Source: an uncultured Oscillospiraceae bacterium (GTDB lineage Bacteria; Bacillota; Clostridia; Oscillospirales; Ruminococcaceae). Taken from it: 49,637 nt of DNA. The stretch spans positions 1 to 49,637 of the forward strand of contig CASEAH010000031.1 in NCBI GenBank assembly GCA_949285935.1, given 5' to 3'. This document shows, piece by piece, positions 979 to 11,170 of the stretch (its first letter is position 1; every line of letters begins with the position of its first letter). The notes under the pieces are model-generated. The model saw nothing but the letters and a program-made list of their open reading frames with translations. It had not been told where the DNA came from and made no database searches. The translations under genes were made by a program, and so were the position numbers.

Positions 979-1007
979 TTGCAAATAGTTACAGGTTGTA
1001 ATATACT
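979..1007 (+). promoter_or_regulatory. Sigma-A promoter with TTACA-N3-TGTAA palindrome (P1)
   Basis: A -35 TTGCAA (979-984) and -10 TATACT (1002-1007) are 17 bases apart. The spacer contains the inverted repeat TTACA-GGT-TGTAA at 989-1001. The same arrangement occurs at 2551 and 4854 before the two paralogues, which suggests a common DNA-binding regulator acting inside the promoter. Confidence 0.75.
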
Positions 1008-1075: not shown

Positions 1076-2059
1076 ATGAAAAAGGTACTTGCTCTGGTTC
1101 TGGCTATCGCCATGATGAGCACTGTGGCTTTTGCTGCTTCCAATACCACTTGGGATGACGGCACTTTTGGCCCCGGTAAAAAGATCACCATCGGTTCCAG
1201 CCAGCTGGACGCTGATCCTGAGAAGGGTGACGTATCCGCTCTGAACACCGACAACTATTCCATTAAGAAGGTTACCTACAATAAGGGTAAGGCTTACATC
1301 GACTCCATCGAGCTGAACGATGAGGAAGATGACGAGCTCGTCATTAAGTTCAAGAAGGACTACACCGTTGAGAAGGCTAAAGAGATCGATCTGGAGATCG
1401 AGCTCCGCGGCAAGGGCAACGATGTGGACGTCAAGACTGTCAACATCGATGTTACTGCTAAGTACCTGACCGGCATTGACACCTTCTACATCAATGAAGA
1501 CAATGAGATCAGCGGCTACTCTGAGACCGAGATCAGCGAGTTCAAGTCTGAGGAAGGTGATGGCGCTCCCTACGGCACCCTGGAGTTTGACACCACCGAC
1601 GGCGATACCTCCGTTGAGGTTCGTGTGTACGACGGCGACAAGCTCTTCCTGGGCCATGATTACGACGCCGACAAGAAGGTTCTGGTTGCCAACGCCGATT
1701 CTGAGGCTGAGATCTCCTTCCTGAACTTCCCCGCTAAGCCCTCCTTCAACAGCACCGCTACCGTTTACTTCTATCAGGTCGACGAGGACGGCTTCGTTTA
1801 CGAGCTGACCGGCGAAGGCAAGATCAAGAAGTCTGCTGCTAAGTGGTCTGAGGATGACGGCTGCTGGGTTCTGAAGACCCGCACCCTGGGCTCCTATGTC
1901 TTCGCTGACAAGGCCCTGACCTCTGCTGCTGCTGCTGGCGAGGGCACCGAGGGTGAGACCACCAACCCCGACACCGGCGCTAACGATGTTGTTGGCATCG
2001 CCGCTGCTCTGGCTGTTGTCTCCCTGGTTGCTGCTGGCGCTGTCTCCCTGAAGAAATAA
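1076..2059 (+). CDS. Secreted surface protein 1 with NPDTG sorting signal
   Basis: A 327-residue protein. Residues 1-21 are a Sec signal peptide (MKKVLALVLAIAMM, then AFAA). The mature part has a conserved N-terminal block (NTDNYSIKKVTY), an acidic middle that varies between paralogues, and a long conserved block from PYGTLEF through LNFPAKPSFNSTATVYFYQ to TLGSYVFADKAL. The end is a classic wall-sorting signal: N297-P-D-T-G, a hydrophobic segment, then KK. A sortase is expected to cut in this motif and attach the protein to peptidoglycan; the sortase at 8280-9179 is the obvious candidate. The start at 1076 is set by GGAGG ten bases upstream. The mature domain is not one I recognise. It is monocistronic, with its own promoter and terminator, and is most like the protein at 4955. 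Confidence 0.88.
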   Translation: MKKVLALVLAIAMMSTVAFAASNTTWDDGTFGPGKKITIGSSQLDADPEKGDVSALNTDNYSIKKVTYNKGKAYIDSIELNDEEDDELVIKFKKDYTVEKAKEIDLEIELRGKGNDVDVKTVNIDVTAKYLTGIDTFYINEDNEISGYSETEISEFKSEEGDGAPYGTLEFDTTDGDTSVEVRVYDGDKLFLGHDYDADKKVLVANADSEAEISFLNFPAKPSFNSTATVYFYQVDEDGFVYELTGEGKIKKSAAKWSEDDGCWVLKTRTLGSYVFADKALTSAAAAGEGTEGETTNPDTGANDVVGIAAALAVVSLVAAGAVSLKK

Positions 2060-2096
2060 GTTTAACTTACTTCTGAAAAGGATACACAAATAAGAG

Positions 2097-2131
2097 ATCC
2101 CGCCCCTTCTCCACAGGGGCGGGATTTTTGT
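2097..2131 (+). terminator. Rho-independent terminator of surface protein 1
   Basis: An 11-bp stem ATCCCGCCCCT/AGGGGCGGGAT (2097-2107, 2115-2125) followed by TTTTTG. Confidence 0.9.
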
Positions 2132-2550
2132 GTTTAGAGTGGAAACCACCAATAGAACCGGTGGAAGCTTCCTGAAAAAAGCTTTGGCTTCCAGGATCAA
2201 GCGGAGCGAGCTGCAAACAGCAAATCGTCATCAATAAAAAGTTTCCTTAGTACTGTGACTGCCCGTTTACAGGATGCAGGGGAAGTGATGCAGGGGAAGC
2301 AAATTCAGTGCGTCTTAAGACGTATGCCGGTAACAAACCCTTTGGGGAATGGAGCAAACCACCAGTTCAGCGGGTGGTTTTGATTTATATGTTTTCTGGC
2401 AGAAAACATTGGGATGACAGATGATATTAAAGAAGAAGTGTCCCAACCTTCAACGGCTTTTTGCAGGGTTGGACAGAAACGGCTGAATTTTTGTAAAAAA
2501 GTGAAAGTGGATCTTCCATAAATTAGATTACAATTTGATTACAAAAAGAC
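2132..2550. other. Gene-free spacer with a hairpin near 2356-2386
   Basis: No convincing coding frame. It contains a tandem 14-bp duplication (2273-2300) and a hairpin AAACCACC/GGTGGTTT (2356-2363, 2373-2380) followed by a short T-rich stretch, possibly a second terminator. Confidence 0.5.
2273..2300 (+). repeat. Tandem 14-bp duplication
   Basis: GATGCAGGGGAAG plus one base occurs twice in a row (2273-2286 and 2287-2300). Confidence 0.8.
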
Positions 2551-2579
2551 TTGAAATTAGTTACGAAATGTAATATACT
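2551..2579 (+). promoter_or_regulatory. Sigma-A promoter with TTACG-N3-TGTAA palindrome (P2)
   Basis: -35 TTGAAA (2551-2556), 17-base spacer, -10 TATACT (2574-2579). The spacer holds TTACG-AAA-TGTAA at 2561-2573, the same element as in P1 and P3 with one changed base. A further half-like motif GATTACA lies just upstream. Confidence 0.75.
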
Positions 2580-2601
2580 ATCATCACGGGCCCGGGAAAA
2601 A

Positions 2602-2630
2602 CGAGAGAGGCGATGGAGAGACCCCTCTCG
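2602..2630 (+). promoter_or_regulatory. 5' leader stem-loop with TGGAGA in the loop
   Basis: CGAGAG-A-GG pairs with CCCTCTCG across 2602-2610 and 2623-2630 with one bulged base. The loop contains TGGAGA at 2614-2619, 53 bases before the start codon. Confidence 0.55.
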
Positions 2631-2671
2631 GACCCGCCCAAAGAAACCAAACCGTTTATGGAGGTACACAG

Positions 2672-3640
2672 ATGAAAAAGATTCTTGCATCCCTGCTGGC
2701 TGTTACCATGCTGGCCACCACCGCCATGGCAGCCGACTACACCCCCGGCCAGAAGGTGGAGTTTGACGAACTGGCTCCCGGCTGGAGCAGCACCAGCACT
2801 CCCCCCGAGAAGGAGCTGCATACCGACAACTACTCCATCACCGATGTAAAGTGGGAGTCCGGCAAAGACCTGGTGGAGTCCGTCAAAATTGACAACGACG
2901 AAAACAAGCTGGTCATTACCCTGAAGAAGGACTACACTTCTACCAAGGAGAAGGAGCTGAAGGGTACCGTCAAGCTTCGCGAGAAGGGCGTCAGCAAGTA
3001 CCATGTTCTGTCCATCGAGGGCACTGTTGGTTACAACCAGTCCGAGATCACCATTGATTCCGACGGCTACATCGCCGAGTTCACTCCTTCCAACGACGTA
3101 GTTTACACTGTCAAGGCCGAGGGCAATGTTCCTTACGGCACCCTGGAGTTCTCCGCCGACATGGCTGAGATTTCTGTCCGCGTCTACGAGGATGAGAAGT
3201 ACTACCTGGGCTTCAATGTGGATCCCAACCGGGATGTGCTGCTGGCCAACGCCGATTCCGACGCTGAGATCAACTTCCTGAACTTCGAGGGTACCCCCAC
3301 CTTCAACAGCACTGCTACCGTTAACTTCTACGAGACCAACGAGGACTCTATCATCTACGAGATCAAGAGCGGCAAGCTGGTTAAGTCTGCTGCCAAGTGG
3401 GATGAGGATTCCGGTTCTTGGGTCCTGAAAACCAAGACCCTGGGCAGCTACGTCATCTCCGACAAGGAGCTGAAGTCCCCTGCCGGCACCTCTGGGTCCG
3501 GTTCCTCCGGCTCCGGCTCTTCCAACTCCGGCAGCGTTAGCAACCCCGACACCGGCGCCAACGATGTGGTAGGTGTTGCCACCGCTCTGGCTGTGGTGAC
3601 CCTGGTGTCCGCCGCTGCTCTGTCCCTGAAGAAGAACTAA
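2672..3640 (+). CDS. Secreted surface protein 2 with NPDTG sorting signal
   Basis: A 322-residue paralogue of the proteins at 1076 and 4955. A signal peptide covers about residues 1-21 (MKKILASLLAVTML, cleavage near AMA-A). NTDNYSI near the N-terminus and the block VPYGTLEF to TLGSYVISDKEL are shared, with FLNFEGTPTFNSTATVNFYE as the core. A Gly/Ser linker (about residues 270-288) leads to N291-P-D-T-G, a hydrophobic segment and KKN. This architecture marks a peptidoglycan-anchored sortase substrate. It is the most diverged of the first three: it lacks the DGDKLFLGHD wording and has its own middle region. GGAGG lies eight bases before the ATG. It has its own promoter and a very strong terminator. 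Function beyond surface display is unknown. Confidence 0.88.
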   Translation: MKKILASLLAVTMLATTAMAADYTPGQKVEFDELAPGWSSTSTPPEKELHTDNYSITDVKWESGKDLVESVKIDNDENKLVITLKKDYTSTKEKELKGTVKLREKGVSKYHVLSIEGTVGYNQSEITIDSDGYIAEFTPSNDVVYTVKAEGNVPYGTLEFSADMAEISVRVYEDEKYYLGFNVDPNRDVLLANADSDAEINFLNFEGTPTFNSTATVNFYETNEDSIIYEIKSGKLVKSAAKWDEDSGSWVLKTKTLGSYVISDKELKSPAGTSGSGSSGSGSSNSGSVSNPDTGANDVVGVATALAVVTLVSAAALSLKKN

Positions 3641-3658
3641 GTATCAGCCAAGTGCCAA

Positions 3659-3698
3659 AAGCGCCAGGCCCGGTTCAGCCGGGCCTGGCGCTTTTTTG
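3659..3698 (+). terminator. Strong rho-independent terminator of surface protein 2
   Basis: A perfect 13-bp GC-rich stem (3661-3673 with 3679-3691) and a T6 run. Confidence 0.95.
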
Positions 3699-4853
3699 CC
3701 TGCAAAAGTGAAACTGCCGTTTGGGAAGAGGAAGCGTCCAAAAGAAAACTTTGAAGCAGGGCAAGAAGGACAGGTTAACGGCAAATTTCCCATTTACAGC
3801 TTTGCGGCTGATTAAAAAGGGGCACCAGCTGCGACTGCGCTGCGCTCATTCTGTGGGAAGGGGCCAGAGAATAATGGATACGGGTATCCAATAGAGAAAA
3901 AGGGACAGACACCTATCTTGAGGCTCCTACTCCCCAAAGGGTTCCATCCGTCTTGCTTAAGTTGTTGCTCTAATCTATCGGCGGTGATTGGTTGAACATA
4001 ATTTGCAGCAAAGTAAAAGATAACATCAAATGCGGTCAGCATTATCTTTTGCCTGATAAAAAGTTTTGAAAATCATGGGTTTGGCGCAGGGCTGGGAAGA
4101 GTGATGATTGCCTCTGGTAGTAGAACCATAGGGAAAAGAATTTTGGTCCCGGGTTCCAGTGCTTTCTAAAGTGGCTTTGAATAACAGATGGAAATTGCTG
4201 CCCAAACGGAAATTCCTGGCTTGCAGATGACAAAGCAGGTGAAGCAGGGGAGGGTCAAATTGGAATGCCTCGGAGAATTTCCCATGCCAACTTTTAGCAG
4301 GCCAGTTTGTTCTATAGCCTTGTTTAATGAGATCAATTGTGAAAGGATCTAATTCCAACATACAAGAGAAACATCAGTAGTCAGCTTTTAGATAGAAACA
4401 GATTGTCTCGGGCAGGCGGCCGGCATATAGCCTGCTAATAAAACCTTGTCAAAAGGAATTTATCGCTGGACAGAAGAGGTGTTTGAGAATTTTCAATTCG
4501 CCTTATATAGGAATGGCCCAGCCCTAAATCACATCACAAGCATTTGTGGTGATATCTCCTGTGCGAAATGTGAAACATGCAATTGGCCAGAGAGAACAAA
4601 ACAAAAAATTTACGGGATCCCGGCAGAACAGGCAGGGTTGGTCCAGATAAAAGCTGTAGATTCAGGCAAATTTGGCTGAAAATGATTTTTCTGATATGGT
4701 GCAAATGAAGAAGCTGATATTTTTAAAAAATTCATCTTTAGCACTTTAAAATTTAAAAGAGTGGGAAATACGTGCGATTTGGCGAATTTAGTGTTAACAA
4801 ATTGTGCATATATACGAAATGTTACAAAATGGAATATTTATATCAAAAAATAG
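3699..4853. other. 1.15-kb AT-richer region without a convincing gene
   Basis: Several short frames are open, for example a TTG-started one of 77 codons at 4446-4679 on the plus strand with a C-x-x-C-x-x-C stretch, but none has a good ribosome site, a recognisable domain or coding-like codon use. The composition is lower in GC than the flanking genes. It may be a decayed insertion between duplicated genes. Confidence 0.4.
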
Positions 4854-4882
4854 TTGCAATTGGTTACAACTTGTAATATACT
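4854..4882 (+). promoter_or_regulatory. Sigma-A promoter with TTACA-N3-TGTAA palindrome (P3)
   Basis: -35 TTGCAA (4854-4859), 17-base spacer, -10 TATACT (4877-4882), with TTACA-ACT-TGTAA at 4864-4876. A further ATGTTACA lies upstream at about 4819. Confidence 0.75.
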
Positions 4883-4894
4883 TAAAACCGAAGA

Positions 4895-4918
4895 AGGGAC
4901 GATTTGGAGATAGTCCCT
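4895..4918 (+). promoter_or_regulatory. 5' leader stem-loop with TGGAGA in the loop
   Basis: A perfect 6-bp stem AGGGAC/GTCCCT (4895-4900, 4913-4918) with a 12-base loop containing TGGAGA (4905-4910), 45 bases before the start codon. Confidence 0.6.
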
Positions 4919-4954
4919 GATTCATCCAAAGATTTTATTATGGAGGAACGCATC

Positions 4955-5995
4955 ATGAAAAAGGTACTTGCACTCGTACTGGCTGTTGCTATGATGAGCA
5001 CCGTTGCCTTTGCCGCTTCCAACACCGTTTTCGGTTCCGGTTACGACAAAGAGCCCAACAACATCCCCTCTGGCACCAGCGACATCAAAGGCAGCTATGG
5101 CCCCGGAGAAGATTTTTCCATCGCTTCCGGCGACCTGAACACGGATGGTGACAAGAAGGTTTCCGACCTGAACACCGACAACTATTCCATTAAGAAGGTC
5201 ACCTACAAAGCCGGCAAATCCTATATCGACTCCATCGAGCTGGACAACGATGAGGGAGACGAACTGACCGTCACCTTCAAGAAGGACTACTCCGTGGAGA
5301 AGGCCAAGGATGTGGAGGTCTTTGTAGAGCTTCGCGGCAAGGGAAACAATGTGGATGCCAAAACCGTTAACGTAAAGTTTGGCACCCAGTATGTGGTTGG
5401 CACCAACCCTGTTGCCATCGACAAGGACGGCGACATTGACGAGAAGACCCTGAATCTTGATATGATCAACAAGTTTGATTCCGGTAAGGACGGCAGCCCC
5501 TATGGTACCCTCAGCTTTGATACCGATGACGGCGACACCACTGTGGAAGCCCGTGTTTATGACGGCGACAAGCTGTTCCTGGGCCATGACTTTGATGCCG
5601 ACAAGAAAGTTCTGGTAGCCAACGCCGATGCCGACGCTGAGATTTCTTTCCTGAACTTCCCTGCCAAACCTTCCTTCAACAGCACCGCCACCGTTTACTT
5701 CTACCAGGTGGATAAGGATGGCTTTGTCTATGAGCTGACCGGCGAAGGCAAGATCAAGAAGTCTGCTGCCAAGTGGTCTGAGGATGACGGATGCTGGGTT
5801 CTGAAGACCCGCACCCTGGGCTCCTACGTTTTCTCTGACAAGGCTCTGACCTCTGCCGCTGATTCCGGCAGCAGCTCCACCGATGGTGAGGGCACCAACA
5901 ACCCCGACACCGGCGCCAATGATGTTGTAGGCATTGCTGCTGCTCTGGCTGTTGTTTCTGTCATCGCGGCTGGCGCTGTCTCCCTGAAGAAATAA
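4955..5995 (+). CDS. Secreted surface protein 3 with NPDTG sorting signal
   Basis: A 346-residue paralogue. The signal peptide (MKKVLALVLAVAMM, then AFAA) is nearly the same as in the protein at 1076. It has about 30 extra residues after the signal (around SGYDKEPNNIPSGTSD). From PYGTLSFDT to the C-terminus it is almost identical to surface protein 1, including SEDDGCWVLKTRTLGSYVF, while the segment just before, from VKFGTQYVV to FDSGKDGS, is quite different. The sorting signal is N316-P-D-T-G, then a hydrophobic segment and KK. This pattern of identical and divergent blocks suggests recombination between copies. The start at 4955 follows GGAGG. Own promoter and terminator make it monocistronic. 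It is an expected substrate of the sortase at 8280-9179. Confidence 0.88.
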   Translation: MKKVLALVLAVAMMSTVAFAASNTVFGSGYDKEPNNIPSGTSDIKGSYGPGEDFSIASGDLNTDGDKKVSDLNTDNYSIKKVTYKAGKSYIDSIELDNDEGDELTVTFKKDYSVEKAKDVEVFVELRGKGNNVDAKTVNVKFGTQYVVGTNPVAIDKDGDIDEKTLNLDMINKFDSGKDGSPYGTLSFDTDDGDTTVEARVYDGDKLFLGHDFDADKKVLVANADADAEISFLNFPAKPSFNSTATVYFYQVDKDGFVYELTGEGKIKKSAAKWSEDDGCWVLKTRTLGSYVFSDKALTSAADSGSSSTDGEGTNNPDTGANDVVGIAAALAVVSVIAAGAVSLKK

Positions 5996-6040
5996 GCCTG
6001 TCCCACAGGTGAAAAATGTGCCGCTTTCATAGCGCAGCAA

Positions 6041-6071
6041 AACGCCCCCTTTCTCCAAGGGGGCGTTTTTT
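6041..6071 (+). terminator. Rho-independent terminator of surface protein 3
   Basis: AACGCCCCCTT/AAGGGGGCGTT (6041-6051, 6057-6067) followed by TTTTT. Confidence 0.93.
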
Positions 6072-6611
6072 ATGTTGAAGAGCAGCGTGCAAACAGCAAA
6101 GCAGGTAGAAGTTTGTAAGTCCACTGCTTCCGGAAATTTCTGTGATGGAATGCGAATGGGGGAGTTTATAAATCCATAAAAACCCAATGAGGTACCTGCC
6201 TTTGCGATTAAAGAGATTTTAAATGAGAGCACCAAGGTGATGGAGAAGAGTGGGGCGTTCAGCCAGGCCAGAATGGATCAAATCATGCCGCTATGGGGCA
6301 GAATGAAGAAGGAAAGTTTGGCGAGAGACGACACAGGGGGAGAAGGCAAAAGGAGAGCGAAAGACATTTGGATTTCTGCAAAGGAATGAAATAATGAGAT
6401 TCCCTCAGGGTCGATGGATGCAAAAGAAAAACTTTCTTTTACAGAACGGATTCGCCAGAAAGAAATCCTCTCACCGGAAAAGCTGGAGCATTTTTGCCCG
6501 AGTATTGTATAAACATGGCGCTGATAACGTTTTTTGAAAAAAACGGAGGAAATGATTGAAATACAAAAAGTAGAATATAATCGAAAAATACAAAATGGAA
6601 GCTATCTCCTG
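6072..6611. other. Gene-free spacer with one short open remnant
   Basis: A plus-strand frame is open from 6180 to the TAA at 6393-6395 and reads like coding sequence (AIKEILNESTKVMEKSGAF, later RMDQIMPLWGRMKKE), but it has no start before GTG/ATG at 6237-6240 and no ribosome site. It looks like a gene remnant. The rest is AT-rich with nothing recognised. Confidence 0.35.
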
Positions 6612-6640
6612 TTGAATTACGTGGTTTTCCCCCGTATAAT
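6612..6640 (+). promoter_or_regulatory. Sigma-A promoter of surface protein 4
   Basis: -35 TTGAAT (6612-6617), 17 bases, -10 TATAAT (6635-6640). The TTACA-N3-TGTAA palindrome and TGGAGA stem-loop of the other three promoters are absent here. Confidence 0.75.
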
Positions 6641-6702
6641 GGTCTCCAGAGCCCGGTTGGCAGGGCCAAACAAAGCCACCAAAATCCAAGGGAGGACCAC
6701 CA

Positions 6703-7821
6703 ATGAAAAAGTTCGTATCTTTTGCCCTGGCTGTGATGATGATTGCAGCTATGGCTGTGACAGCTTTTGCGGCAGTGGACAGCATCTCTTTTGAACAGGA
6801 CGAAAATGGCATAACACTGGGACAGGATCAGCTGCTTCCCGGAACCACCTACCGCTTTCCCCTTCTCATCGCCCGGGACGGCGGCCTCAGCACCAACCTT
6901 ACCCCTGAAGACCTGGAAGGGCATCGGCTGGATATCAGCGTGACCAAAGGCAGCGGTGTGATCACCACGCCGAAAGCGGAGGAGAAGGACGGGAAAATCT
7001 ATCTTACCTTTACCACCTCTGCCCACTACTCTGTCAAGGCCGCTGAGGCGGAAATCAAGGTTCGCTACCTGAGCCGTGAACCTCTTAAGGAACTGGCGTC
7101 GGTGACCACCGCCTTTTCCGTTGGCAATGGCCAGATATCCGATGACGCGCTGGCCGGACTGGAAAAGGGAGACGCTCTGGAGATTTCCCCGGATGCACCG
7201 GTACTTTCCGCCGCCCAGCTGGAAGCTTTCGCAAAACTTAATGACTACAAGGCTGTAACCTTTACAGGCAGCGGCTGGAGCTTTACCGGCAAGGTGAACA
7301 ACATGGACGGTCTCAATCTTTACACCACCCAGGCTCCCATCATGGAAGTCGTCAAAAAATTCGATGAAAATCAGTTTAAATTTCTTACCTTCGCCAGCAA
7401 GCCCCGCTTTGCAGACAAAGGCACTCTGACCATTGATGTTTCGGATGTGGAGCAGAAATTTGACGGCAAGTTCTTTCTGTACAAGTATCAGGACAACCGG
7501 CTGTATAAACTGAATTTTCGGTACGACGAGGGAGCGGGCACGATTTCCTTCAATCCTTCCGATCTGGGAAGCTACGTCATCACCGACCGTGAAATTACCG
7601 ATCTGATGCTCAATGGCTCCGGCAGCAGCTCCTCCGGAAGTTCTTCTTCCGGCTCCGGAAACAGCTCTTCGGCTTCGGGCAGCAGTTCCTCCGGCAGCTC
7701 TTCTTCCGGCAGCAGCTCGGAAACCAACCCCGAGACTGGCATCACCCACCCTGTGAGCGGTGCGGTTGTAGCTCTGCTCAGTGTGGCCGTCCTGTCCCTG
7801 GCAGTGACCCGGAAGCGCTGA
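6703..7821 (+). CDS. Secreted surface protein 4 with NPETG sorting signal
   Basis: A 372-residue diverged member of the same family. A signal peptide covers about residues 1-24 (MKKFVSFALAVMMIAAMAV, then AFAA). The body aligns only in the last third with the other three: FLTFASKPRFADKGTLTID matches their FLNF..PTFNSTATV block and DLGSYVITDREI matches LGSYVISDKEL. A long Ser/Gly linker (about residues 305-340) precedes N342-P-E-T-G, a hydrophobic stretch and RKR. The linker would carry the domain through the cell wall. GGGAGG precedes the ATG. The gene lies tail-to-tail with the sortase gene 458 bases away, which supports an enzyme-substrate link. Function of the mature domain is unknown. Confidence 0.87.
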   Translation: MKKFVSFALAVMMIAAMAVTAFAAVDSISFEQDENGITLGQDQLLPGTTYRFPLLIARDGGLSTNLTPEDLEGHRLDISVTKGSGVITTPKAEEKDGKIYLTFTTSAHYSVKAAEAEIKVRYLSREPLKELASVTTAFSVGNGQISDDALAGLEKGDALEISPDAPVLSAAQLEAFAKLNDYKAVTFTGSGWSFTGKVNNMDGLNLYTTQAPIMEVVKKFDENQFKFLTFASKPRFADKGTLTIDVSDVEQKFDGKFFLYKYQDNRLYKLNFRYDEGAGTISFNPSDLGSYVITDREITDLMLNGSGSSSSGSSSSGSGNSSSASGSSSSGSSSSGSSSETNPETGITHPVSGAVVALLSVAVLSLAVTRKR

Positions 7822-7900
7822 TCGTTCCGGTATAGCCGGGTATGATCCGGGAACGCGGAACATGGCGTTAGGATCCCTGCAGAAAACATAAGAAAATAGA

Positions 7901-7949
7901 AAACTGCGCTCTTCCCATATCCCAAGGGATTGGAAAGAGCGCAGTTTTT
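7901..7949 (+). terminator. Rho-independent terminator of surface protein 4
   Basis: AAACTGCGCTCTT/AAGAGCGCAGTTT (7901-7913, 7935-7947) followed by T residues. Confidence 0.85.
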
Positions 7950-8180
7950 GTGGCTTGGTTGCTTGAGCAAAAACTCTCAGGGGAAGGCAAAAGTTTTTGA
8001 TGCAGGAATGAAATGGGGGGAGGGGGGATTCTGTTTTTCTCAGGAGGCCCATTTTTCCGCCCGGTGAAGTCTCCGTTTACAGGTTTGGAAATAAAGAGAG
8101 AAAACGGCAGATGGGGGTAACCTTCAAAGGGCCTGTTATCCGTACAAAGAGGGCCCATCTGCTGCAGAAGCAGTGTAAGA

Positions 8181-8227
8181 AAAAAGAACCGGCGCCTTCC
8201 CAGCTCTTGAGCCGGAAAGGCGCCGGT
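8181..8227 (-). terminator. Rho-independent terminator of the sortase gene
   Basis: Read on the minus strand, ACCGGCGCCTT/AAGGCGCCGGT (8217-8227, 8188-8198) is followed by a U-rich tail (complement of 8181-8187). Confidence 0.85.
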
Positions 8228-8279
8228 AAGCATTCTGTGCTGTTTTCAGATTATTCTGCGCTGGACTCTCTTAAAAATC

Positions 8280-9179
8280 TTATTGCGCAGGGGCCTTGAT
8301 GGAGGGGTTGGCCTCCACCTTGACGGGATCGCTGGTCGGCTGCGTGCCGCTGGGCAGCAGCTTGGCCATTACCACATAGCGATAGTCGTTGGGATAGGTG
8401 GGAACAATGTGATAGGTGCAGGTAGAAAGGGTAAGGATCTTGTCGTTGGCGGTCACGTCCACGTCAAAGTTGAACTGGGAACGCTTCCGGGCATCGGTAA
8501 TGATGTTGAGGAAATCGGTGTTGGAAGGATTGGGCTCTATGTAGTTGAAGCCGACTTCGGTATAGAAAACAGCGAAAACCTGCCATACCATCTCAGATTC
8601 GGGGGTAGAGAAGTAAATATAAGGATTTTCCCGGGCAAAGTCGATATCGAGATATTTCTTCAGCTGGGAGAAAAGCTTGCCTTCCGGATTATCATCCATG
8701 CTGTGGCCATAAATGACGGTGTTTTTGGACAGCTTGTCCCGGCTGCCGATGTAGGCCCGGAAGTCCATAAAATAGCAGCCGTCAAAATTCTGGTTTTTGA
8801 GGTTGTCACGACGCATATAGTAATCGTTGCTGCTGTCGCCGATGGCCTGAACCACCACCTCGTCAATGGTGGTATTGGGAACATAGATCCAGCCCACGGT
8901 ATCCTCGTTTTTGGCGTAATGGGCCACCATGCCGTCCAGCATGTGCTTCTGGATCTCGGCGGGAGTCATTTGGGGCTTGCTGTCGGACCCGGAGGAAGAG
9001 CTTCCCGAAGAACTGCTGCTGGAGGAAGTGGAACTGCCGGAAGAGCTGGAGCTGCTGGTCTTGGAGCTCTCATCCTCCGAGGGGGCGGGTTCGGGATCGC
9101 CGCAGGCGGCAAGGGAAAGCGCCATCACAGCAGCCATCAGGATGGCCAGAAAGGATTTGCCGTTCTTTCGTAAATTCAT
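8280..9179 (-). CDS. Class B-type sortase, predicted lipoprotein
   Basis: A 299-residue transpeptidase. Residues 1-26 are a lipoprotein signal ending in the lipobox LSLAAC, so Cys26 should be lipidated. Residues 35-68 are a nearly pure Ser/Gly linker. The catalytic domain (about 75-275) has the sortase triad: His159 in TVIYGHSM, Cys254 in TLSTCTYH and Arg267 in NDYRYVVM. KLFSQLKKYLD after the His is typical of SrtB. Sortases cut a C-terminal motif in secreted proteins and join it to the wall cross-bridge. The likely substrates are the four NPDTG/NPETG proteins upstream in the window; NPxT(N/G)-type motifs fit class B enzymes. The ATG at 9179 is preceded by AGAGGTG; a longer upstream frame lacks a ribosome site. 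Most sortases have a plain membrane anchor, so the lipobox is notable. Confidence 0.9.
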   Translation of the reverse strand: MNLRKNGKSFLAILMAAVMALSLAACGDPEPAPSEDESSKTSSSSSSGSSTSSSSSSSGSSSSGSDSKPQMTPAEIQKHMLDGMVAHYAKNEDTVGWIYVPNTTIDEVVVQAIGDSSNDYYMRRDNLKNQNFDGCYFMDFRAYIGSRDKLSKNTVIYGHSMDDNPEGKLFSQLKKYLDIDFARENPYIYFSTPESEMVWQVFAVFYTEVGFNYIEPNPSNTDFLNIITDARKRSQFNFDVDVTANDKILTLSTCTYHIVPTYPNDYRYVVMAKLLPSGTQPTSDPVKVEANPSIKAPAQ

Positions 9180-9322
9180 GGAGAAACACCTCTGCAAAAT
9201 GATTTTGGTGAAAACGGGGCGGCAGCGCCCCAAAAGCTCCCGGGCCGTTGGCCAAGGGCTGCGGATAAAATATTTGCGGCCGCCCGGGAAACCGGGAAAG
9301 ACGCATATAAAAACAACTGGTT

Positions 9323-11083
9323 TCAGCCGTTTTTATCGGGAGGAAGGGGGGAAACTACGCCGCATTTGGCGTCCATGACCACATTCATGCCGGTTTTGAG
9401 GATGCGGCTGCACCCTTTGGCCCCGGTGATAATGGGAATACTGAACTGATCGGCCACCGATGCAATGTGGGAGCCGATCCCTTCCGCTTCGGTAATGATA
9501 CCGGAAGCGTGAGACATCATTTTCATCCACAGATCACAGGTATCCCGGCAGACGATAATATCGCCAAAGTTAAAGTTGGCAAAAAGTTCCTCGTTTGAGC
9601 CGGCCACACACACCGTCCCGGCAGTGGAAAGGGTATTGGCACCCAGACCGGACAGGAGACAGTTGCCCACAGTAGTGACCCTTACCAGATTGGTGGTACC
9701 GGAGACGCCCACCGGTACGCCGGCCGCAATCACGACCAGGTCGCCGTCCTTGAGCAGGCCTCCCTGGGAAAAGGCTCCCTGCACTGCGGCGTCAAAGAGC
9801 TGATCGGTGGTGGTCTGCTCCTCAATGATAACCGGAATCACGCCCCAGGACAGGTTCAGCTGCCGGTAGGTGAAATCGTTGGTGGTGCATGCGATAATAG
9901 GAACGCCCGGGCGGTATTTGCTGACCATTCGGGCAGTGCGTCCCGACTTGGAAACCGGAATGATGGCCGCAGCCCTCAGATCGTGGGCGGTGGTGACAGT
10001 GGCATGGGAGATGGCGTCAGTAATGCTGAGAGCCGTTTCTTCCTCCCGGGCCTTGAACCGCTTCACATAGTCAATATCCTGTTCGATCCGCTGGGCGATG
10101 GTGGCCATGGTGCGCACCGCTTCCACAGGCCACTTGCCGGCGGCAGTCTCGCCGGAGAGCATGATGGCGCTGGTGCCGTCATAGATGGCATTGGCCACAT
10201 CATTGGCTTCGGCCCGGGTGGGACGGGGATTGTGAATCATGCTTTCCAGCATCTGCGTGGCAGTAATGACTACCTTGCCCGCGCCGTAGCACTTTTTGAT
10301 CATCATTTTTTGCAGAACGGGGATCTCTTCAAAGTCGATCTCCACGCCCAGATCTCCCCGGGCTACCATGATGCCGTCGGCGGTTTTGAGAATCTGGTCA
10401 ATATTCTCCACACCCTGGGAGTTTTCAATTTTGGCAATGATTTTGATATGGTGGCAGGCGCGGGACGCCAGCACTTCCTTGATAGCCAGGACGTCGGCGG
10501 CAGTGCGCACGAAGGAGGCGGCAATAAAATCAAAGCCCTGCTCCACACCAAAAAGGATATCCTGCCGGTCCTGTTCGCTCAGGTAAGGCATGGAAAGCCT
10601 TGCTCCCGGCAGGTTGACTCCCTTGCGGTCGCTGATGCTGCCGCCATTAAGGATACGGCACCGGATATCCGGGCCGGAAACCTCCAGCACCCGCAGCTCA
10701 ATAAGACCGTCATCCAGAAGGATCCGGGAACCTGCCTGCACATCCCGGGGAAGATCCTGATAGCTGACAGAGACCTGGGAGGCGTCTCCTTCCACCTCAC
10801 GGGTGGTAAGGAGAAATTCCTCTCCTGCGGCCAGCTGCGCCCGTCCGTCCCGGAATTTTCCCAAACGGATCTCAGGACCTTTGGTATCCAGCAGGGTGGC
10901 TACCGGCAGGCCCAATTCCTCCCGCAGGCTGCGGATGGTTTCCAGCCTGGCCAGATGCTCCTCATGGGAGCCATGAGAAAAATTGAACCGGGCTACATTC
11001 ATGCCCGCCAGCATCATCTGGCGGACGATCTCCGGGTCGGAGGAGGCAGGGCCCAGGGTACAGACGATCTTGGTCTTTCGCAT
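9323..11083 (-). CDS. pyk: Pyruvate kinase with C-terminal PEP-utiliser-like domain
   Basis: A 586-residue glycolytic enzyme that makes pyruvate and ATP from phosphoenolpyruvate and ADP in the cytosol. The N-terminus MRKTKIVCTLGPASSD, the KIENSQGVENIDQIL segment with the catalytic Lys, MVARGDLGVEI and the ITATQMLESM signature are all present. After the usual kinase end (about residue 475) there is an extra domain of about 110 residues ending in SHIASVADQFSIPIITGAKG, related to the swivelling phosphohistidine domain of PEP-utilising enzymes and common in Firmicute pyruvate kinases. The start at 11083 is chosen because it follows AAGGAGT and matches the family start; the longer open frame does not. 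A promoter lies at 11142-11170. The sortase gene follows 143 bases downstream on the same strand and may be partly co-transcribed. Confidence 0.95.
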   Translation of the reverse strand: MRKTKIVCTLGPASSDPEIVRQMMLAGMNVARFNFSHGSHEEHLARLETIRSLREELGLPVATLLDTKGPEIRLGKFRDGRAQLAAGEEFLLTTREVEGDASQVSVSYQDLPRDVQAGSRILLDDGLIELRVLEVSGPDIRCRILNGGSISDRKGVNLPGARLSMPYLSEQDRQDILFGVEQGFDFIAASFVRTAADVLAIKEVLASRACHHIKIIAKIENSQGVENIDQILKTADGIMVARGDLGVEIDFEEIPVLQKMMIKKCYGAGKVVITATQMLESMIHNPRPTRAEANDVANAIYDGTSAIMLSGETAAGKWPVEAVRTMATIAQRIEQDIDYVKRFKAREEETALSITDAISHATVTTAHDLRAAAIIPVSKSGRTARMVSKYRPGVPIIACTTNDFTYRQLNLSWGVIPVIIEEQTTTDQLFDAAVQGAFSQGGLLKDGDLVVIAAGVPVGVSGTTNLVRVTTVGNCLLSGLGANTLSTAGTVCVAGSNEELFANFNFGDIIVCRDTCDLWMKMMSHASGIITEAEGIGSHIASVADQFSIPIITGAKGCSRILKTGMNVVMDAKCGVVSPLPPDKNG

Positions 11084-11141
11084 ACAGCAAACACTCCTTA
11101 AAATACGGGAAGACATATGAACCGGCAGGCGGATATGTCTG

Positions 11142-11170
11142 TATATAGTATGACCTGGAGCAGCTGTCAA
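11142..11170 (-). promoter_or_regulatory. Sigma-A promoter of pyk
   Basis: On the minus strand TTGACA (11165-11170), 17 bases, TATATA (11142-11147), about 60 bases before the pyk start. Confidence 0.65.

Follow-up and report, generated by a model that had tools for sequence, protein, structure and literature searches.

In the genome of an uncultured Oscillospiraceae bacterium, we identified a gene module in which an array of four secreted proteins with NP(D/E)TG sorting signals, p1 to p4, is encoded next to a class B-type sortase. The module lies on contig C31, which was analyzed over its entire length of 49,637 bases (hereafter, the window) and belongs to a genome of 2.44 Mb in 110 contigs that is 89% complete. 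We infer that the genus is Angelakisella; the closest named matches of the sortase come from Angelakisella massiliensis and two Angelakisella metagenome-assembled genomes (MAGs). We consider it likely that the module serves cell-wall anchoring, with a lipid-tethered class B-type sortase attaching the NPxTG proteins p1 to p4. According to this model, p1 to p4 would be exported via the Sec route and retained in the membrane by the C-terminal NPxTG motif together with the subsequent hydrophobic stretch and K/R residues. The sortase, a presumed lipoprotein, would be attached via Cys26 to the outside of the membrane, reach out on its Ser-rich linker, cleave between Thr and Gly, and join the protein to peptidoglycan as the putative acceptor. 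The same enzyme may also serve three family proteins encoded elsewhere in the genome. In this model, p1 to p3 and their homologues would represent the variable components and p4, which neighbours the sortase in every intact module observed, the constant one.

Each of the four proteins starts with a signal segment and carries NPDTG (p1 to p3) or NPETG (p4) near its C-terminus, ahead of a hydrophobic stretch and K/R residues. All four carry the constituents of a cell-wall sorting signal, i.e. an LPxTG-like pentapeptide, a hydrophobic stretch, and a positively charged tail on an exported protein. An earlier note on this DNA had described secreted proteins with NP(D/E)TG signals and a class B-type sortase at the end of the array, which we confirmed for the four open reading frames (ORFs) and the gene at 8280-9179. 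Its further suggestion, a surface coat or adhesion system, would be a putative role of these proteins. The note had also regarded the proteins as four paralogues. Judging from the identities to p1 of 74% (p3), 48% (p2), and 23% (p4), this applies to p1 to p3, whereas p4 is a distant relative whose likeness to the others is largely confined to a C-terminal region containing LGSYVI(S/T)D or LGSYVF(S/A)D and which scores 31 bits against the p1-family profile. As the note had stated, the mature domain is not a recognized one: the mature parts of p1 to p4 had no match above cutoff in searches of Pfam, NCBIfam, and PDB sequences. Matches below threshold (e.g. DUF2807, BppU_N, TraK_N) were not used. 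A structure prediction for p1, based on an alignment of the four window proteins, consisted mostly of strands and, at a mean pLDDT (predicted local distance difference test) of 45.5, was too poor for a fold search.

Screening the genome for NP(D/E)TG at the DNA level gave 13 matches compared to 1 for the reversed pattern, and six of the 13 are C-terminal tails of the p1-p4 family. The remaining seven were treated as unrelated, being absent among the tails found by profile. The whole-tail profile (A5) recovered seven proteins at E ≤1.1e-9, all from the p1-p4 family, with the next match at E 0.7; seven of the 14 rows of A5 stem from the window genome and match by construction, so that only the absence of an eighth tail is informative. 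Besides the four proteins of the window, the set comprises three p1-like proteins on contig C66. Contig C106 encodes a further relative of p1, with a plain membrane anchor instead of a sorting motif; such motif-less, plainly membrane-anchored relatives occur in two genomes of the genus (L038:4790-6082 and L208:3342-4607).

The closest solved relatives of the sortase belong to class B (2oqw, E 2e-26), and the protein scores 50.4 bits against PF04203, above the cutoff of 26.6. Among 52 distinct relatives, His159, Cys254, Tyr213, and Ser252 are present in all 52 and Arg267 in 50, with Lys in the other two. The equivalent residues of Bacillus anthracis SrtB, an enzyme that cleaves an NPKTG peptide, are H140, C233, Y191, S231, and R243 (PMC11987632). 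In the mutagenesis-backed model of that enzyme, the P4 Asn of NPKTG is held by Tyr191, Ser231, and the catalytic Arg243 (PMC11987632). Since these contact residues for P4 Asn are kept in the sortase of the window, an NPxTG substrate fits. The use of NPKTG in B. anthracis also removes the novelty that the earlier note had seen in NPDTG as a mixture of NP and TG motifs.

Sortases usually carry an N-terminal transmembrane anchor. In the window sortase, a short hydrophobic segment directly precedes the tetrapeptide LAAC, which predicts removal of the segment and possible lipidation of Cys26. This lipobox had been overlooked in the earlier note, as had the position of p4 as the element nearest to the sortase. 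Using a rule that asks for a lipobox-like tetrapeptide preceded by Met and a hydrophobic segment, we called a lipobox in the best sortase at 23 of the 28 nearest named loci compared to 5 of 52 other named loci. Since the lipobox and the Ser-rich linker are common to these 23 nearest named sortases, the enzyme is probably a lipoprotein. We also compared 78 distinct sortases, from which duplicates, rows in which no domain could be located, ORFs above 480 aa, and scores below 150 had been dropped. When these were ranked by the catalytic domain alone and the 15 profile sequences were excluded, a lipobox was called in 25 of 37 nearer and 5 of 26 farther relatives. Ranking all 78 by the profile gave 41/52 and 4/26, which is partly circular, as the ranking profile (alignment A2) had been built from lipobox-positive sequences including their N-termini. 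On the sortase tree, the lipobox label changes 12 times compared to 25.4 times in shuffles, i.e. the lipobox is clustered, yet not confined to one clade.

That the sortase is instead an ordinary membrane-anchored enzyme whose Cys26 is not lipidated seems rather improbable to us. Lipidation is predicted from the sequence only, close relatives with a plain hydrophobic anchor exist, and 11 of the 52 near relatives were not called by the rule; however, about four of these 11 (L193, L194, L195, and L199) look like missed lipoboxes on reading. The position of LAAC directly after a short signal segment and the frequency of the lipobox in the nearest named relatives speak for lipidation. In an alignment of the window sortase with 20 hand-picked named relatives, the Cys column contains Cys in 20 of 21 rows, although all five lipobox-negative loci are among the eight that this alignment omits from the first 28 named ones. 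The N-terminus furthermore matches NCBIfam lipoprotein models weakly and below cutoff. Among the papers listed by searches of the open-licence literature for lipobox or lipoprotein sortases, and for class B sortases in connection with Ruminococcaceae, no such enzyme came to light; the mentions of a lipoprotein sortase were a citation of an engineered reagent and a side remark in a paper on the tree of life.

Directly upstream of the sortase and on the same strand lies a gene whose product we take, from its sequence rather than from a family search, to be a pyruvate kinase. The same neighbour, scored by likeness to the window gene, is found beside the sortase in many relatives. At least 21 of the 52 near relatives, all of them lipobox-positive by the rule, have this gene upstream on the strand of the sortase at a distance of no more than 300 bp, compared to 1 of 26 others; these counts are lower bounds, as some stretches end early. 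Examples of a lipobox sortase directly downstream of pyruvate kinase are the window (8280-11170), L078-L083, L086, and L211-L213. We know of no functional link between pyruvate kinase and a lipobox sortase.

A genetic tie between these proteins and a class B-type sortase, as the earlier note had proposed, is supported by several observations. In four genera besides that of the window, represented by genomes G004, G078, G114, and G086, an array of family members, a p4-like gene nearest to the sortase, and a convergent lipobox sortase occur together; pyruvate kinase is also located at the three of these modules that were examined for it, in G004, G078, and G114. The p4-like gene is the family member nearest to the sortase in all five modules. 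Across 297 genomes of the family (126 genera, own genome included), the p1-family profile matched 53 at an E-value of 1e-5. These comprise 28 of the 30 genomes with a sortase match of at least 195 bits compared to 25 of the 267 others, a comparison in which the threshold was set after the list had been seen and shared ancestry is ignored. Some of the 25 (G155 and G086) have a lower-scoring lipobox sortase. In the module of G078 (L212:2050-15030), NP(G/A)MG takes the place of NPxTG in all five array proteins, and in its sortase Phe replaces Thr250, four residues before the catalytic Cys. We set this case aside as proof of co-evolution: the enzyme departs from the consensus at 12 well-conserved columns, of which only some are close to the active site.

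The genome encodes at least seven sortases, six identified by PF04203 and the one on contig C39 by TIGR03064, and seven tail-bearing proteins, which is at odds with the earlier picture of one sortase and four substrates. This raises the alternative that the lipobox sortase has other targets, that another class B-like sortase (on C2, C78, C30, or C39) anchors the NPxTG proteins, and that the linkage is an accident of descent. Several observations point in this direction or weigh against our assignment. Four of the six other sortases are class B-like, and each is possibly the enzyme in question. Five proteins of the genome match the class B model TIGR03064, of which two exceed its cutoff of 153.75, whereas the window sortase reaches 132.9 bits (133.2 in the genome search) and is therefore termed class B-type, outside that equivalog. 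Ile214, the putative contact of P3 Pro, is present here but in only 31 of the 52 relatives. The co-occurrence of 28/30 compared to 25/267 genomes is confounded by ancestry. Most relatives lack the linkage of array and sortase: an array of the p1-p4 family beside the sortase was absent from all 80 named loci, read with flanks of at most 10 kb, L082 alone containing a weak p4-like frame there, and array and p4 are close by in 4 of 34 sortase-centred stretches (window included, G086 found separately; most are centred on the best sortase matches, and some are short). In G140, which belongs to the same genus, a p1-like/p4-like pair lies about 31 kb from the sortase. Moreover, pyruvate kinase is a commoner neighbour of the lipobox sortase than the array is.

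Despite these points, we regard the involvement of another sortase as unlikely, albeit credible. No NPxTG gene was found by the tail rule in stretches of 15-20 kb around the other six sortases, the order of array, p4, and sortase recurs in five genera, and the co-occurrence, with the limits given above, argues in the same direction. A different sortase paired with NPDTG proteins, which the earlier note had named as contrary evidence, was thus absent from the neighbourhoods of the six other sortases of the genome, whereas in G294 a family member ending in NPSTGAVA lies beside a lipobox-less sortase (L190). One stretch near another sortase of the genome holds an LPNAG-tailed protein, encoded by a 1472-aa open frame (L031:11244-15662) within 1 kb of the sortase domain on C11. 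The class B sortase domain on C2 (G000:C2:12251-12973, L033) is located inside an ORF of more than 1200 codons, and similarly long ORFs occur in relatives.

The constant position of the p4-like gene next to the sortase in five of five modules would also agree with a polymer-building module, in which p4 forms a wall-anchored base and the sortase links p1-like proteins to p4 or to each other. Consistent with such an arrangement, the p4-like protein of G086 is fully tailed, while the three adjoining array genes encode tail-less proteins. However, the Pfam and PDB searches revealed no pilin or other domain above cutoff, and the p4-like protein of G062 (L266) contains no motif. We therefore consider polymer formation highly improbable and retain the anchoring of individual proteins to the wall as the working model.

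By the usual model, sortases act on substrates that a hydrophobic tail retains in the membrane. Among the relatives of p1 to p4, NPx(T/M)G is present near the end in 55 of 63 listed family ORFs, and several of these stop exactly at NPxTGR. It is possible, though short of probable in our estimation, that a lipid tether and a flexible linker allowed the sortase to dispense with a membrane-retaining tail on its substrates. The signal of the relatives would then have shrunk to a terminal NPxTG plus one basic or a few polar residues, capture from outside would represent a second anchoring mode, and the tailed array of the window would be ancestral. This tail-less reading is supported by the conservation of the ends, by the basic residue they carry, and by the operons described below. 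Read-through of the stop codon was set aside as an explanation: only 1 of 12 gene ends inspected past the stop (L211:9102-10430, G004) is followed by an in-frame hydrophobic stretch, which we read as a relic.

At the DNA level, NPxTG-Arg-TRR (a pattern that also admits TGG, which is not a stop) matched 65 of the 297 genomes, mostly once, compared to at most 1 per strand and genome for the reversed control. It was richest in one genus, with 13 matches in G062, 13 in G155 (one of them TGG), and 10 in G223. In ten genomes chosen for such matches, NPxTG followed by any residue and TAA occurred 56 times compared to 3 for the reversed control; the residue before TAA was Arg in 51, Lys in 3, Gln in 1, and Ala in 1. 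The choice of genomes by an Arg-based pattern favours Arg, and the Arg found in 34 of 34 cases within the one genus (G062, G155, G223) is therefore the firmer figure. These matches were counted as DNA patterns, and their position at an ORF end was checked for part of them. Among 394 genomes of the order, NPxTG-Arg-TAA matched five, i.e. G062 with 13 and four genomes with one each. The fetched loci contained 34 distinct ORFs of at least 100 codons ending in NPxTG(R/K), of which 21 have a signal-like start, seven run off the locus, and six have none; some of the latter are evidently chance matches. The proteins span several families, including one in G062 with leucine-rich repeats and a FIVAR match below threshold, and the four NPxTG(R/K) proteins of genus g51 that were scanned matched no Pfam family. 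Secreted proteins of several families that end in NPxTG-Arg-stop, with no hydrophobic tail, were noted at L264-L272, L275, and L277.

The tailed profile A5 had no match at E 0.05 in G062, G155, or G223 and one in G086, its p4-like protein. Outside Angelakisella, this profile is insensitive (of the five NP(G/A)MG tails in G078 it detected two, and the p4-like tail in G004 escaped it), so that these results mean no tailed signal detected. The best sortase in all nine tail-less genomes examined has a lipobox-like tetrapeptide (called by a looser rule that does not ask for a start codon), LSTC, and YGH. In G086, a lipobox sortase lies next to the three tail-less array proteins read and the tailed p4-like one.

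Among the papers listed by searches of the open-licence literature, no description of natural sortase signals that lack the hydrophobic part was found. For Clostridioides difficile, the hydrophobic region and the charged tail are reported to be required for the membrane association that enables sorting (PMC5569036), which argues against simple sorting in the absence of a tail. Conversely, exogenous LPXTG peptides are incorporated by Staphylococcus aureus (PMC4723074), making tail-free capture chemically possible. The flexible linker on the sortase could aid such capture.

Tail-less ends are also found outside the p1-p4 family. Directly upstream of class B-type sortases and on the same strand, we observed open frames that span 1268-1577 aa and encode cadherin-like domains (PF12733), a signal-like N-terminus, and, as judged by a window rule, no further hydrophobic segment. 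In Acetanaerobacterium elongatum, the protein ends in NPDTGLMY, its stop lies 27 bases before the ATG of the sortase, which itself carries a lipobox. In an uncultured Oscillospiraceae MAG (NPSTGTGKGA, lipobox sortase), a Provencibacterium MAG (NPNTGERGKSE, sortase without lipobox), and G155 (HPNTGVQEVEE, sortase without lipobox), the open frames of the two genes overlap. As two of the four sortases lack a lipobox, the link between tail-less ends and lipidation is not a strict one. In a rough control using the last 15 residues of 1,727 distinct ORFs of at least 300 codons from the fetched loci, NPxTG occurred 36 times, a count inflated by loci that were fetched because of the motif, compared to 1 for HPxTG and 0 for eight other motifs.

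The positions of all features are given in Table 1. The sortase gene is convergent to the array and faces p4. The assignment of an own terminator to each gene, proposed earlier, is borne out by five stem-loops with folding z scores of -5.2 to -6.7, while a scan for a simple terminator consensus revealed no excess (12 seen, 11.8 expected from shuffles). For the proposed own promoters, the upstream regions of p1 to p3 share an element, GTTACNNNNTGTAATATACT, with three matches in the window compared to 0.00 expected and none elsewhere in the window; -35-like hexamers lie 17 bp upstream of it. The upstream region of p4 differs and contains a promoter-like TTGAAT-17-TATAAT. However, 12 promoter-like sites were counted in the region compared to 6.9 expected, and the sites of p1 to p4 are thus to be seen as consensus matches only. 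We did not retain the GTTAC element as the mark of a regulon: p1 to p3 are duplicates, and the element is possibly just inherited. Only a short ORF (4-201) and a frame for a GNAT acetyltransferase (206-739) precede p1, and the array may extend past the nearby contig edge.

Table 1. Features of the module in the window and cadherin-like proteins in relatives (the latter by locus).
Feature	Position	Strand	Remarks
p1, secreted NPDTG surface protein, 327 aa	1076..2059	+	signal segment, mature part, sorting signal 1964-2056
p2, secreted NPDTG surface protein, 322 aa	2672..3640	+	sorting signal 3542-3637
p3, secreted NPDTG surface protein, 346 aa	4955..5995	+	sorting signal 5900-5992
p4, distantly related secreted NPETG protein, 372 aa	6703..7821	+	Ser/Gly-rich linker; sorting signal 7726-7818
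Class B-type sortase, 299 aa	8280..9179	-	catalytic His159, Cys254, Arg267
Lipobox LAAC, sortase residues 23-26	9102..9113	-	from sequence; common to relatives; Cys26 lipidation predicted
Ser-rich linker after lipobox, sortase residues 27-70	8970..9101	-	from sequence
Pyruvate kinase gene (presumed)	9323..11170	-	directly upstream of sortase; named from sequence
Promoter element GTTACN4TGTAATATACT, p1	988..1007	+	putative
Promoter element GTTACN4TGTAATATACT, p2	2560..2579	+	putative
Promoter element GTTACN4TGTAATATACT, p3	4863..4882	+	putative
Terminator stem-loop, p1	2093..2129	+	
Terminator stem-loop, p2	3657..3695	+	
Terminator stem-loop, p3	6039..6069	+	
Terminator stem-loop, p4	7899..7949	+	
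Terminator stem-loop, sortase gene	8188..8227	-	
Giant cadherin-like secreted proteins	L088:6158-10819, L090:5226-10690, L100:5475-10858, L258:5458-11000		tail-less NPxTG/HPNTG ends

The module shares features with two described class B systems. Like SrtB of B. anthracis and its substrate IsdC, it combines a class B catalytic domain with an NPxTG motif and conserved Tyr, Ser, and Arg contacts to P4 Asn (PMC11987632). In contrast to that system, for which the source describes a transmembrane helix and a single known substrate, in heme uptake, we found several putative substrates, D or E at position x, a lipobox, and a Ser-rich linker. In agreement with the earlier note, no heme or iron gene was detected: neither p1 to p4 nor 20 further ORFs, a part of those in the window, matched an iron or heme family of Pfam (ten of the 20 match some Pfam family, ten none at E 1e-5). 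In C. difficile, also a clostridial gut bacterium, one class B sortase serves many predicted surface substrates, namely seven (S/P)PxTG proteins in strain 630 (PMC4155245), which contradicts the earlier view that SrtB is limited to one or two substrates. According to another source, at least two of the SrtB candidates are not processed in vivo (PMC5569036). The C. difficile system differs in having S or P at P4 and, in strain 630, one sortase rather than at least seven, and it needs the hydrophobic region and charged tail (PMC5569036), which relatives of the window module lack. The tails of the NCBIfam model NF033846 (Rumino_NPXTG, "NPXTG-anchored protein"), by its name from Ruminococcus-like bacteria, have a C-terminal NPxTG as well; p1 alone matches this model, at 14.2 bits and below the cutoff of 23.5, while p2 to p4 gave no match at E up to 1.

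Overall, an NPxTG-type motif and an SrtB with many substrates are already known. As far as literature searches go, the lipobox sortases, the module of array, p4, and sortase, and above all the tail-less signals appear to be undescribed. The combination of a lipidated-looking sortase with a genus whose proteins end in NPxTG-Arg-stop, and in which the profile detected no tailed signal, would offer natural enzyme-substrate pairs with which to test the purpose of the tail. Provided that the tail-less proteins are anchored, annotation by motif plus hydrophobic tail overlooks an entire class of wall proteins of such commensals. The apparently reduced tags of some relatives hint at a looser mode of protein attachment to the bacterial cell wall.

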